NCBI GenBank assembly: GCA_003224755.1
Contig: QHZR01000083.1
Span: forward strand, 1-33,724
Direction of reading: 5' to 3'
Source of the DNA: Acidobacteriota bacterium
GTDB taxonomy: Bacteria; Acidobacteriota; Terriglobia; Terriglobales; Acidobacteriaceae
DNA: 33,724 nt
The stretch's first letter is position 1. Every line of letters starts with the position of its first letter. Made by a program: the position numbers and the translations under genes. This document shows positions 10,687 through 15,337 of this stretch, piece by piece. The notes beneath the pieces are model-generated. The model searched no databases, was not told the origin of the DNA, and worked only from the letters and a program-made list of their open reading frames with translations.

Positions 10687-11535
10687 CTAAGCGTGTGCAC
10701 CTTTCGCCTTTTCGTTTCCCGCCAAGAACTGCCCCACAACCTTTTCCAGGTTCCCGGCCTCAGCCGATATGTCACCAGCAAGACCTCGCGTGCCGCCATT
10801 GCCGTCAGCTTTCATCTGCTCCGCCCATTCGCGGATGGTCGAAAGCGAAGTGCGCACCTTCAGCACCAGTTCAGCCGATTCTTCAGCACGAATGAGTTGC
10901 GCTTGCCTCAAAGCAGCCGCTTCACCGCGATCCACGAAGACCGAAGCCAATCCTAGAATTTCTCCTCCCGGCATGCGCACCGGAATCAGCGTGACCTCAA
11001 GCGAGCGTTCTTCCCCGTTTGGAGTGGCATGCCACGTTTGAAAAACATCATCGTGCGGCTTGCCATGCAGTGCGTCGGCAAAAGCGTCCGTCACCTTGAT
11101 CTCGTTTCCACCCTCGGGAAAAGTCTTCGAGTCGTGGAAAATCTGCGCCACGCTCATTCCCATGGGCGACGCGAAGCCGAGAATTCGGCGCGCCGCTGCG
11201 TTCGCCTGCCGCACCAATCCGTGCGGTGCAACAAACATCATTCCGACCGGAAGATTAGCGATGATCGCCGCGGTGATGTGCTCAGAAGTCTTGCTGCGCC
11301 GGCGTTGTTGCTGCTGCTCGTTCTGCAAGGCAAACTTCTGCTGCTTCAATTGCTGAATTACCGTGTAGGCCTGCAGCGGCAGCGATTGTTTCGCGCCTGA
11401 CGTATCAGGCATTTCGCCGTCCACCATCCGGTGCCTCAGCATCCGCATGGCGACCGCTCCTACAACGAAAGCTGCCGCCGAACATAAGAACAGCGCTATC
11501 GCGCGAATAAAAAGGGGATTGGTCAGCAGCCTCAC
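10687..11535 (-). CDS. Membrane-anchored PAS protein with degenerate histidine-kinase dimerisation stub
   Basis: A 282-residue protein with an N-terminal transmembrane helix (FIRAIALFLCSAAAFVVGAV), a coiled linker (VIQQLKQQKFALQNEQQQQR) and a PAS domain at about 85-205 (ANLPVGMMFVAPHGLVRQAN, then an R-ILGFASPMGMS segment). A final helical region reads AEESAELVLKVRTSLSTIRE. That helix has the shape of a HisKA dimerisation helix (family pattern 'xxHExRNPLxxI'), but the phospho-accepting His is absent and no ATPase domain follows. The GTG start at 11535 overlaps the prepilin peptidase stop (GTGA), with ggagg five bases before it, so translation is coupled. An ORF extension upstream is antisense-frame noise inside the peptidase gene. 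A role in sensing linked to type IV pili or secretion is inference. Confidence 0.72.
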   Translation of the reverse strand: MRLLTNPLFIRAIALFLCSAAAFVVGAVAMRMLRHRMVDGEMPDTSGAKQSLPLQAYTVIQQLKQQKFALQNEQQQQRRRSKTSEHITAAIIANLPVGMMFVAPHGLVRQANAAARRILGFASPMGMSVAQIFHDSKTFPEGGNEIKVTDAFADALHGKPHDDVFQTWHATPNGEERSLEVTLIPVRMPGGEILGLASVFVDRGEAAALRQAQLIRAEESAELVLKVRTSLSTIREWAEQMKADGNGGTRGLAGDISAEAGNLEKVVGQFLAGNEKAKGAHA

Positions 11536-12455
11536 CCCAGCCTCCAATACCAGTGGAGAAACTGCTGACCAAAGAAAAACGCCACCAGCCCCATGCTGCC
11601 CAGGAAAACCCCGAACGGCATCTGATGGCGCCGCAACGCGACCATCGCGGAAGCCCAAGCGTTTCTCCGGGCGGCCGCCCCGGACTCGTGAAACACGTGC
11701 CTCCTGCGCTGCGTACGCTTGATCCAAACCGCGAAAACTGTCCACAGCCCAAAAAACGAGCCGGCAATCGAAGCCGCGAATATCGTCAGAATCGTCAGCC
11801 GCAGCCCCACAAACGACCCGATCATCGCCATCAGCTTCACATCGCCAAATCCCATTCCTTCCACGCCGCGCCAGCGCAGATAAACGACTCCCACTCCGTA
11901 CAAAAACGACGCCCCGGCTGCCGCGCCAAGCAGCGCGTCGAATAGCGAAAACAATCTCCAGGAAAGTTCAAAGCTGACCGGCAATTGAACCACTCCCGGC
12001 AGAACCAGCGAAAGCAGATCGCTCACCGGCACGAACAGGCTGAACATCAGACCCGCCGCCAGTCCGGTTAGGGTCAATTTGTCCGGAAGAAGATGGGTCT
12101 CAGCATCGGTAAATATCAGCCCTAGCAGCAGAAACCCAAACACCGCGCACTTCAGCATTGCCGGTATCAGCCCGAAATGCCAGTAACAGACCAGGAACAG
12201 ACCGCCAGTCAGGAGTTCTACCACCGCATATCTTGGTGTAATCTGTGCGGAACAGTTGCGACACTGACCGCGAAGCAGCACCCAGCTCAACACTGGAACG
12301 TTGTCATAGAACCGGATGGCTTTGCCGCAATTCGGGCAAGCCGAGCCTGGCCGGACCACTGACAGCCCGCGTGGCATCCGGTAAATGCACACGTTCAGGA
12401 AGCTGCCAAACGCCAGCCCCAGCGCGAATACTCCTCCGGCAATAACGGGATCCAC
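11532..12455 (-). CDS. pilD: Prepilin peptidase / N-methyltransferase (A24 family)
   Basis: An inner-membrane aspartyl protease that cleaves type IV prepilin or pseudopilin leader peptides and N-methylates the new N-terminus. The 307 residues contain the N-terminal GSFLNVCIYRMPRG, the cytoplasmic zinc loop with CPNC at 40-43 and CRNC at 65-68, and about eight membrane segments. The two catalytic aspartates are D117 (FTDAET) and D205 (GFGDVK). The start is GTG 12455 with ggagg four bases upstream. No pilin or pil assembly gene lies in the window, so this is a detached pilD. It is the first gene of a likely operon with the PAS protein and perhaps the coiled-coil protein. Confidence 0.93.
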   Translation of the reverse strand: MDPVIAGGVFALGLAFGSFLNVCIYRMPRGLSVVRPGSACPNCGKAIRFYDNVPVLSWVLLRGQCRNCSAQITPRYAVVELLTGGLFLVCYWHFGLIPAMLKCAVFGFLLLGLIFTDAETHLLPDKLTLTGLAAGLMFSLFVPVSDLLSLVLPGVVQLPVSFELSWRLFSLFDALLGAAAGASFLYGVGVVYLRWRGVEGMGFGDVKLMAMIGSFVGLRLTILTIFAASIAGSFFGLWTVFAVWIKRTQRRRHVFHESGAAARRNAWASAMVALRRHQMPFGVFLGSMGLVAFFFGQQFLHWYWRLG

Positions 12456-12776: not shown

Positions 12777-13058
12777 TTAGCCGCCACTGATAGCCGGCAC
12801 GATCGAAATCTGAGATCCGTCTGAGATCGGACTCATAAGCCCGCCGGTATAGCGAATATCCTCGTTCCCAACGAAGATGTTGATGTGTTCCCGGATTTGT
12901 CCTTGCTCAGTTGCGATGCGATCTCGGACCCCAGGGTAAAGTACCCACAGTGTAGCCAACGCATCGGCAACTGTTGAGGGCGAGGCTTCTATTTCAACGC
13001 TGCTGTGCCCACCGGCGAATTCGCGCAAGGCACCAGGGATGTGAAAAGTCACCGACAC
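12777..13058 (-). CDS. MoaD/ThiS-family ubiquitin-like sulfur carrier protein
   Basis: A protein of 93-95 residues with the beta-grasp pattern of MoaD and ThiS: VTFHIPGALREFAGG, then SSVEIEASPSTVADALATLW, and a C-terminal strand SQISIVPAISGG ending exactly in Gly-Gly. In this family that tail is adenylated by a MoeB/ThiF-type E1 enzyme and thiocarboxylated to donate sulfur, for example to molybdopterin. No moaE, moeB or thiF lies in the window. The start at GTG 13058 is favoured because gagg, formed partly by the end of the kinase gene, lies five bases upstream. A GTG at 13064 overlaps the kinase stop as GTGA. The direct adjacency to the kinase-propeller gene implies joint translation and a shared function. 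Confidence 0.85.
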   Translation of the reverse strand: MSVTFHIPGALREFAGGHSSVEIEASPSTVADALATLWVLYPGVRDRIATEQGQIREHINIFVGNEDIRYTGGLMSPISDGSQISIVPAISGG

Positions 13059-13060
13059 GA

Positions 13061-15205
13061 TCACCTCTTACTCGGACGCGATTTGTAGGTGGCCGATTTG
13101 CTCGACTTGTCTGTAGACACCCGGCGGGATTTGCCGGTAACAGATTTCGTTCCGCCTGAAGTCGAGACCGGCGCTCTTCGCGACGTTGCAGTTGAATCGC
13201 CAGATGCCTGTTCGAAAACAGCACTCCGTACGCAAACAACTGATGGCAGCCCATCGAGAATCTTTTGCCAATTCTTGCCTTCATCCCGCGAGCCAAAGAT
13301 CTGGCCGCTCCGTGTACCAAAATAGATTCCCGGCGGGTCAATCGAATCCGCTGTCATGGCATCGCGCAAGACAGTCTCGTAAGCCTTTTTTTGCGGCAAG
13401 CCGCGCATGAGCGGTTCCCATGAGGCGCCACCGTTGCGCGTTCGATACACGCGCAAACGGCCATCGCATGCGCAGCGAAATTGGTCGGACTCAACCGGAA
13501 GGGCATACACCCAGTCCGGGTTTTTGGGGTGCACGATCAAGGCAAAACCAAAATCTGATGGCACGCCATTCGCGATGTCCACCCAGTTTTCGCCACCGTC
13601 ATCCGAGCGATACAGGCCCCAATGATTTTGCAAGAAAAGACGTTCGGGGCGAGCAGGATGCATTGCGATCTTGTGTACACACTGTCCAAACTCGGGATAT
13701 TTATTCGGCACGAACATAGCCCGAATGCCACGGTTTTGTGCTGTCCATGTGCGTCCGCCATTGTCGGTGCGGTAAACGCCGCCGGCTGAGATTGCGACGT
13801 ACATGCGCTGGCTGTTCGCCGGGTCGAGCAGGATTGTATGCAGCGCCAGCCCGCCGTTGCCTGGAACCCACCGGGGACGATGAGGATGATCAAACAGACC
13901 GCGCACGAGCGACCATGATTCCCCGCCATCCCGTGACTCAAACAGCGCGGCCGGCTCTACGCCACAGTAGAGAACGTCAGGTTCATCCGGGCGGCCGAGC
14001 GATATCTGCCAAATGTTCTTCAGGGAGAGACCGGTATCGGCTGGAAAACGAATGGCGGCCTCCTGTGGATTCGTCCAGCTCTTTCCGAAATCGTCGCTGG
14101 AACGCAGCATGGTCCCCCAGTAACTCTGAGTCGAAGCCCATATCCGATGTTGACCACAGCGGCCGTCGTAAGCCATCGCATAAATCGCATGCCCGTGGAA
14201 ATAGGGGCCACCCAGCTCCCAACGTGAGCGCTGAGCGTTCGAGCGTAGCAGGAATGCACCTTTAGTCGTTCCCACCAACAGAAGAAAATCTCCCTTCCGG
14301 ACATTGATGTGCTGGACGTTGTGCAAAACCGTAGTTTTGGGTGCGCTGCGATCGGCGTCAGGGGTAACGATGGCTCCGGACTGAACTGCTTCCAAAGCTG
14401 CCTGCACTTCGCCTGCGCGTTGATATCTCTGGGTTGGCTCTTTCGTCAGACAGCGTTGGATGATGGCCCACAGGCCAGGTGGTACTGGAGGACCAAGTGG
14501 CTTCGGCAGTTCGCGCATGATGGCCGAGCCCATATCAAAAGCGGTACGCCCTTCAAAGGGCAGACGTCCAGAAGCCGCCTCATAGAGGATCACTCCTAGG
14601 GCCCATAGATCGCTGCGGTAGTCGGCCACCTCGCCGCGCAAGACTTCAGGCGGCATATACGGCAGAGTGCCGCTCACACTCGATGCGCTATGCATCGTTT
14701 CAAGGGACCGAGTGGCGCCCTCGAAAACCTCACTGCCAACGCGCCTTGCCAGACCGAAATCCAGAACTTTTGCCAAACCATCGGGAGTGACAACAATATT
14801 CGCAGTCTTCAAGTCCCGATGAACGATGCCTTTGTCGTGAGCGCGACCGAGAGCGCTGGCGATCTGAATGCCATAACGGAGGACCGATTCCACCGGCAGT
14901 CCCCCGCCTTCGCTCATCGCGCGCAGGGACTTGCCTTCGACCAGTTCCATCACGATGTAGAGGTCGCCTTCAGTCTCTCCGACTTCGTAGATAGTGCAGA
15001 TGTTCGGGTGAGCAAGCGAGGAGGATGCCCGCGCTTCGTGCAGCAGACTCTGACTCGCCGATGCGTCCAGTCCGGCGCTTTTGTTCACGACTTTCACCGC
15101 CACGTCGCGATGCAACACCTCGTCGTGCGCGCGATAGACGGTTCCCATTCCTCCTTCGCCAATTTGCGCCACGACACGGCAATGACCGAGAACCTGGCCG
15201 ATCAC
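13061..15205 (-). CDS. Serine/threonine protein kinase fused to an Asp-box (BNR) beta-propeller
   Basis: A 714-residue fusion. Residues 6-275 are a complete Hanks-type kinase: GEGGMGTVYRA glycine loop at 16-26, catalytic Lys 38 (VAVKVV), HRDLKTAN at 129-136, DFGLAR at 149-154, and GTLPYMPPEVL after the activation loop. Residues from about 300 to 650 form a propeller with six Asp-box motifs S/R-x-D-x-G-x-x-W: SSDDFGKSW, SRDGGESW, RTDNGGRTW, RSDDGGENW, RTRNGGASW and SRDEGKNW. The last 40-50 residues are a basic Ser/Thr/Lys tail. No transmembrane helix separates kinase and propeller, unlike PknB-type receptors, so both are probably cytoplasmic. GTG 15205 is chosen because ggaaggga precedes it with good spacing; ATG 15229 is an alternative. 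Asp-box repeats occur in sialidases and sortilin-like proteins, but no sialidase active site is visible. Confidence 0.88.
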   Translation of the reverse strand: MIGQVLGHCRVVAQIGEGGMGTVYRAHDEVLHRDVAVKVVNKSAGLDASASQSLLHEARASSSLAHPNICTIYEVGETEGDLYIVMELVEGKSLRAMSEGGGLPVESVLRYGIQIASALGRAHDKGIVHRDLKTANIVVTPDGLAKVLDFGLARRVGSEVFEGATRSLETMHSASSVSGTLPYMPPEVLRGEVADYRSDLWALGVILYEAASGRLPFEGRTAFDMGSAIMRELPKPLGPPVPPGLWAIIQRCLTKEPTQRYQRAGEVQAALEAVQSGAIVTPDADRSAPKTTVLHNVQHINVRKGDFLLLVGTTKGAFLLRSNAQRSRWELGGPYFHGHAIYAMAYDGRCGQHRIWASTQSYWGTMLRSSDDFGKSWTNPQEAAIRFPADTGLSLKNIWQISLGRPDEPDVLYCGVEPAALFESRDGGESWSLVRGLFDHPHRPRWVPGNGGLALHTILLDPANSQRMYVAISAGGVYRTDNGGRTWTAQNRGIRAMFVPNKYPEFGQCVHKIAMHPARPERLFLQNHWGLYRSDDGGENWVDIANGVPSDFGFALIVHPKNPDWVYALPVESDQFRCACDGRLRVYRTRNGGASWEPLMRGLPQKKAYETVLRDAMTADSIDPPGIYFGTRSGQIFGSRDEGKNWQKILDGLPSVVCVRSAVFEQASGDSTATSRRAPVSTSGGTKSVTGKSRRVSTDKSSKSATYKSRPSKR

Positions 15206-15337
15206 AACACACTCCCTTCCCCGGCACATACTAGGCTGCGCTTCGGGCGTCCGTCAACGAACCCGCGCTTTTATGTGAGCGCCTGATGCACTTTCAAGAC
15301 GCACCGGGATATGGGATTGCTGGCGGTTTGTCGCTAG

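Follow-up and report, generated by a model that had tools for sequence, protein, structure and literature searches.

Organization of the locus

The window, that is the whole stretch of 33,724 nucleotides of acidobacterial DNA analysed here, carries on its minus strand a gene that joins a Hanks-type kinase to an Asp-box propeller and, directly downstream, a gene for a small ThiS/MoaD-type protein (Table 1). The frame of the kinase-propeller gene is open to an ATG at 15229 (13061-15229, minus strand; 722 aa), and the product has 714-722 residues depending on the start; the GTG at 15205 is preferred because homologues begin at the matching residues MIGQ. The kinase domain scores 170.7 bits on the Pfam Pkinase model against a cut-off of 31.7, which places it in the Hanks-type family. 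It does not reach the PASTA kinase model (NF033483; 265.5 against the required 450) and is without PASTA repeats. In an alignment of the full-length fused proteins, K46, E65, D139, N144, D157, the Glu of the APE motif and the activation-loop residue T173 are identical in 17 of 17, and these invariant catalytic residues fit an active kinase. A hydropathy scan of the fusion protein gives a highest 19-residue mean of no more than 1.12 and thus no transmembrane helix, which rules out a membrane sensor kinase.

Table 1. Features of the kinase-propeller/MoaD-like locus in the window
Feature	Position	Strand	Remarks
Kinase-propeller fusion gene	13061-15205	-	GTG start
Hanks-type Ser/Thr kinase domain	14420-15175	-	Residues 19-270 of the 722-aa reading; Pfam PF00069
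Asp-box (BNR) propeller, seven-bladed	13214-14299	-	Pfam, predicted model, match to 3b7f
Basic Ser/Thr/Lys/Arg-rich C-terminal tail, 50 aa	13064-13213	-	Composition; low predicted order
Probable ribosome-binding site (AAGAGG) for the MoaD-like gene	13064-13069	-	Lies in the last codons of the preceding gene
Ubiquitin-fold protein of ThiS/MoaD type, 93 aa, ending in Gly-Gly	12777-13058	-	GTG start; alternative GTG at 13064; PF02597

The propeller half matches the Pfam models Sortilin-Vps10 (52.3 bits, cut-off 33) and BNR (34.4, cut-off 27), and six Asp-boxes can be read by eye (SSDDFGKSW, SRDGGESW, TDNGGRTW, SDDGGENW, TRNGGASW and SRDEGKNW). It is followed by a tail whose 50 residues include 13 Ser, 7 Thr, 6 Lys and 6 Arg. 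The AAGAGG in the last codons of the gene stands 5 nt upstream of the GTG at 13058, and an AAGAGG/AAAAGG-TGA arrangement of the same kind is present at three further loci (L011, L012 and L015). The locus was therefore drawn correctly in the preliminary description of this DNA, which had reported a complete Hanks kinase joined without a transmembrane helix to a propeller with six Asp-box motifs and a basic Ser/Thr/Lys tail, and a 93-residue MoaD-like protein with a Gly-Gly end and a ribosome-binding site within the final bases of the preceding gene: the Pfam matches and intact catalytic residues, the hydropathy scan, the directly legible motifs, the tail composition, the frame from the GTG at 13058 and the AAGAGG bear out each of these points.

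On one side the carrier gene adjoins the propeller gene; on the other, an intergenic gap separates it from a prepilin-peptidase-like gene. There is no moaE adjacent to it, and no cysteine synthase, JAMM protease or E1 gene shares its operon. The downstream genes, on the same strand, encode a prepilin peptidase (A24) and a PAS-domain protein (11532-12455 and 10687-11745), with no obvious link to the module.

Fold and conserved residues of the propeller

Modelled alone with AlphaFold, the propeller is predicted as a seven-bladed ring (blade count from strand order) with a mean pLDDT of 81; in a model of the full fusion the kinase half is poor (mean pLDDT 59). The nearest solved structure is 3b7f (Z 46.1, rmsd 2.2, 349 residues aligned, 38% identity), to which the propeller is also related in sequence over the whole domain (phmmer E=1e-76). 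The entry 3b7f comes from structural genomics and is a 'putative glycosyl hydrolase with BNR repeats' of the Reut_B4987 type from Ralstonia eutropha JMP134; to our knowledge no function has been established for it. Database records name relatives of the propeller 'exo-alpha-sialidase' or 'sialidase family protein'; none of the sialidase-specific families among the Pfam and NCBIfam models is reached at its cut-off.

Residues common to all propeller groups include K323, W407, W454, H464, S481, H519, Q534, H536, H567 and R622. By strand order in the predicted model, successive blades have W407, H464 and H519 on their innermost strand; R622 lies just ahead of an innermost strand, and S481, Q534 and H536 occupy end positions of the strands that follow. 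Because of these strand positions, the conserved His, Trp, Arg and Gln residues suggest one putative site at the channel mouth, possibly metal-binding or catalytic.

The basic tail composition is kept in all fused and in several unfused propellers of the type found in the window (type A, see below). Propellers of type B and of proteobacteria, and many of type A, have a Gly-Gly-ended partner and no such tail, and a family-wide acceptor role for the tail is therefore rejected. This limits the earlier proposal of the Lys/Ser-rich tail as a candidate modification site, which no longer holds as a general rule.

The MoaD-like carrier

The carrier ends in PAISGG and belongs to the Pfam ThiS family (PF02597; 42.7 bits against 22.5). 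Its highest-scoring NCBIfam model is that of SAMP1 (NF041918), on which it reaches 59.4 bits, below the cut-off of 60; all 9 members match this model. The closest solved relative is CysO (PDB 3dwg, E=2e-15). Across the 96 acidobacterial and proteobacterial partners the domain invariably ends in Gly-Gly (21/21 of type A, 65/65 of type B, and 6/6 and 4/4 of those types whose gene precedes the propeller), and one Nonomuraea partner has an aligned domain without this end. An activated C-terminus fits this pattern, because Gly-Gly is kept while little else is common to the partner types.

Some carrier frames are longer. At L015 (5001-6551) the frame runs past Gly-Gly into MutY-like sequence, and at L017 (4998-5633) into PPOX/F420-like sequence, both as read by eye; these are either true fusions that need protease trimming or draft-assembly artefacts. 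In many Terriglobia, MoaD-like domains also form part of open frames some 480-560 aa long (e.g., G025:C61, G105:C15 and G137:C82), which are possible carrier-enzyme fusions.

Linkage of propeller and carrier genes across genomes

The fused kinase-propeller has 9 relatives among the contigs of GTDB species, all in Acidobacteriota, and occurs in 11 of 199 other sampled Terriglobia genomes with a MoaD-like gene directly downstream. Removal of duplicates leaves 19 distinct fused genes, and in 19 of 19 a MoaD-like gene follows on the same strand 0-190 nt after the stop codon. The fused gene has split or shifted ORFs at L014 and L016, which look like draft-assembly frameshifts, and a phylum-wide sample contributed a further fused case (L178) with a partial carrier match.

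The pair is also found without the kinase. Here and in the wider samples below, the loci come from ranked match lists rather than random draws. At 55 of 60 further Terriglobia propeller loci, a profile scan places a same-strand MoaD-like gene no farther than 800 nt away, and in the unfused Terriglobia pairs the carrier mostly starts about 6 nt past the propeller; the five loci with no adjacent MoaD-like gene are L131, L133, L139, L153 and L164. The carrier is likewise present at 11 of 11 loci in L071-L081 and absent beside the propellers of L067-L070. A wider search of Acidobacteriota (L178-L202) gives a partner at about 22 of 25 loci, two of them some 800-900 nt away. In G023, an A-type propeller at the end of contig C2 and an A-type carrier at the end of C33 (L095, L096) are probably one pair split by assembly.

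In Actinomycetota and Proteobacteria, covered here by plasmid and megaplasmid records, the MoaD-like gene lies downstream of the propeller in Arthrobacter and Nonomuraea, and upstream of it in the beta- and gammaproteobacteria P. aeruginosa, Burkholderia stagnalis, Cupriavidus metallidurans and Mitsuaria. Three alphaproteobacterial records (L104, L107 and L111) and one Streptomyces record have a propeller with no adjacent MoaD gene; in L104 this propeller lies near ergothioneine genes (egtB/egtD), among others, and in L107 near a glutamine-synthetase-like gene. Because of these records and the 5 of 60 Terriglobia loci, the propeller may function without the MoaD-like protein.

Chance adjacency is rejected by the linkage across phyla. 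The outcome that the preliminary description named as speaking against its proposal, that the two families have no conserved linkage beyond this genome, is overturned by the 19 of 19 fused and 55 of 60 unfused loci and by the pairs in other phyla. The search for MoaD-like genes next to BNR propellers that it had proposed, with a count of those bearing a kinase, returns 19 distinct fusions among far commoner unfused pairs; the existence of the latter, which it had raised as a possibility, is confirmed, and they are ancestral to the fusion.

Partner types and origin of the kinase fusion

The carriers fall into type A, to which that of the window belongs, the divergent type B, and further types whose gene precedes that of the propeller. 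In three genomes A and B modules stand in tandem, and each propeller is then followed by its own carrier type (L085, L088 and L019/L089). Distance matrices from the propeller and carrier trees correlate with r=0.93 over 98 pairs (0.97 for A only, 0.63 for B only), values that include shared species history; in within-type permutations, 0 of 1000 were as high as observed in either A or B. The fused genes form one clade in both the propeller tree (support 0.998) and the carrier tree (0.976), with the unfused A pairs of G006 and G143 as closest relatives, and this placement indicates that the kinase was joined once, in soil Acidobacteria, onto an already existing pair.

The genome of the window has a second module on contig C402 (L020, 3258-5661), with a B-type propeller and a divergent Gly-Gly-ended carrier that Pfam ThiS does not recognise. 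Between the two lies a gene whose match to TfoX_N is weak and stays under the cut-off, and similar gaps of about 700 nt separate propeller and carrier in L155 and L161.

Taken together, a functional link between the propeller and the MoaD-like protein is highly probable and far surer than any chemistry. The earlier proposal that both gene products belong to one module is well supported by the cross-phylum linkage, the specificity of partner types and the mirrored trees. Its emphasis on the kinase fusion as the striking part was half right: the fusion arose only once, late and within one class, whereas the pair is old and widespread.

Activation machinery in the genome

No E1 or JAB match lies on the window contig (C331); two ThiF matches and one Prok-JAB match are on C609 and C198. 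The operon on C609 (L022/L174) contains a MoeBR-type E1 with rhodanese, a JAMM protease, a cysteine-synthase-like (CysM-like PALP) enzyme and a CysO-like carrier, the last with a C-terminal extension beyond Gly-Gly, and thus amounts to a classical CysO-type operon in an acidobacterium. The second ThiF-type E1 is encoded on C198 and a MoaD-MoaE fusion on C155, and the genome has another MoaD. The window carrier was rejected as the MoaD of molybdopterin synthase, a role filled by the separate fusion on C155, and as CysO, a role filled by the paralogue on C609.

In the window, the carrier gene is not accompanied by the E1 and JAB genes that mark a Ubl conjugation operon. The genes recognised beside the module include no E1, E2, sulfurtransferase or enzyme that would make a substrate, and we infer its chemistry from the carrier family alone.

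Discussion

By analogy with known sulfur carriers, we tentatively prefer a function in which a dedicated carrier would deliver sulfur through a thiocarboxylated Gly-Gly to the propeller site, with the kinase as a lineage-specific control, and rate this just short of evenly balanced. Because the module is without an E1 of its own, a shared E1-rhodanese from elsewhere (the MoeBR on C609, or the second ThiF-type E1 on C198) is proposed to adenylate and thiocarboxylate the Gly-Gly end. A precedent for a shared E1 is given by mycobacterial MoeZR, which charges both CysO and MoaD (PMC3227635). The charged carrier tail would then dock on the conserved channel mouth of the propeller (W407, H464, H519, Q534, H536 and R622). 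As CysM takes sulfur from CysO and MoaE takes it from MoaD, the propeller, as enzyme or scaffold, could take sulfur from its carrier. By phosphorylating the propeller, the Ser/Thr-rich tail or a client, the fused kinase might finally set the timing of module activity.

Two alternatives, both of which we consider unlikely, keep the partnership and change what the Gly-Gly end does. The carrier could be conjugated, in the manner of SAMP or Urm1, to lysines on the propeller, on the propeller's tail or on recruited clients, with the propeller as adaptor and the kinase gating or reading the modification. The near-threshold SAMP1 score and the match of all 9 members to that model speak for such conjugation, as do the E1-like proteins and JAMM protease of the genome and the residues after Gly-Gly in some partners, which would need trimming; Urm1, moreover, is both a sulfur carrier and a lysine modifier (PMC8561144). 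However, the module itself has neither E1 nor JAMM, most propellers with a Gly-Gly partner are without a basic tail, and the window carrier stays below the SAMP1 cut-off. The carrier could instead bind the propeller non-covalently, as a structural or regulatory subunit, with its Gly-Gly inserted rather than activated. The absence of an own E1 from the two-gene module, the strong co-evolution of the partners and a B-type divergence so great that Pfam ThiS misses the copy in the window's own genome (L020) would be accommodated by such a subunit, yet nearly every partner keeps Gly-Gly, although the types otherwise share hardly anything.

Two further readings compete with sulfur delivery to the propeller. 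That the fusion is an ordinary cytoplasmic sensor kinase, with the propeller as ligand-binding domain and the MoaD-like protein as ligand or substrate, agrees with the identity of the catalytic residues and activation-loop Thr in 17 of 17 fused proteins; as most genomes and phyla have the pair with no kinase attached, and the fusion is a single derived event, we hold this to be quite improbable. Mere neighbourhood with no functional link, to which we attach almost no probability, could draw on the partnerless propellers at five Terriglobia loci and in alphaproteobacteria. It is already refuted at the genomic level by linkage in three phyla, in both gene orders and at more than 90% of sampled Terriglobia loci, and by tandem modules that keep type-matched partners.

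In its general form, the proposal is of a widespread two-gene unit in which a propeller with a conserved catalytic channel either receives a ubiquitin-like Gly-Gly protein or is acted on by it, as a new kind of sulfur transfer or Ubl modification, and which has been joined to a kinase in Terriglobia; taken as a whole, this is possible and on balance doubtful. If true, it would directly link a Ubl or sulfur carrier to kinase signalling in Terriglobia. A propeller family tied to a ubiquitin-fold carrier across phyla provides a testable function for both genes, and the kinase fusion is a natural handle on the control of a carrier or Ubl step in bacteria.

The constituent parts, namely ThiS/MoaD carriers, Hanks kinases and BNR propellers, are of known kinds, as is the scheme of a carrier with a dedicated partner. 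The propeller as carrier partner is new as far as the open-licence literature was searched: the pairing of MoaD with BNR repeats is not described there, and the combination of MoaD, sialidase and operon leads only to unrelated work. Open-licence literature on COG4447 concerns a context of aromatic and terpene efflux, with MoaD absent from the portions covered, and the survey of ThiS/MoaD neighbourhoods by Iyer et al. 2006 mentions no propeller, BNR or sialidase.

Comparison with known systems

The module is most readily compared with the mycobacterial CysO-CysM-Mec+-MoeZ system, which it resembles in its ThiS/MoaD-type Gly-Gly carrier with CysO as closest solved relative, in the gene of a dedicated (here presumed) acceptor beside the carrier, and in an E1 that can be shared between carriers. 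It differs in that the presumed acceptor is a propeller rather than a PLP enzyme and that the window module is without JAMM or E1, while a separate, typical CysO-like operon is present on C609. The MoaD-MoaE molybdopterin synthase shares the carrier fold, the Gly-Gly end and a dedicated partner; the window, in contrast, has no moaE, and the MoaD-MoaE fusion is encoded separately on C155. Among protein modifiers of the SAMP1/Urm1 kind, SAMP1 gives the top NCBIfam model for the carrier, but the carrier misses its cut-off. The propeller is of the same fold and family as 3b7f/Reut_B4987, a type that includes a C. metallidurans relative (L108) with a MoaD-like gene directly upstream, whereas 3b7f itself has neither kinase nor basic tail. 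Finally, the catalytic domain of the fusion protein is like that of the PknB/PknA-type Ser/Thr kinases, from which the fusion differs in having no transmembrane helix or PASTA repeats and in that the domain attached to its kinase is a member of a carrier-linked propeller family.
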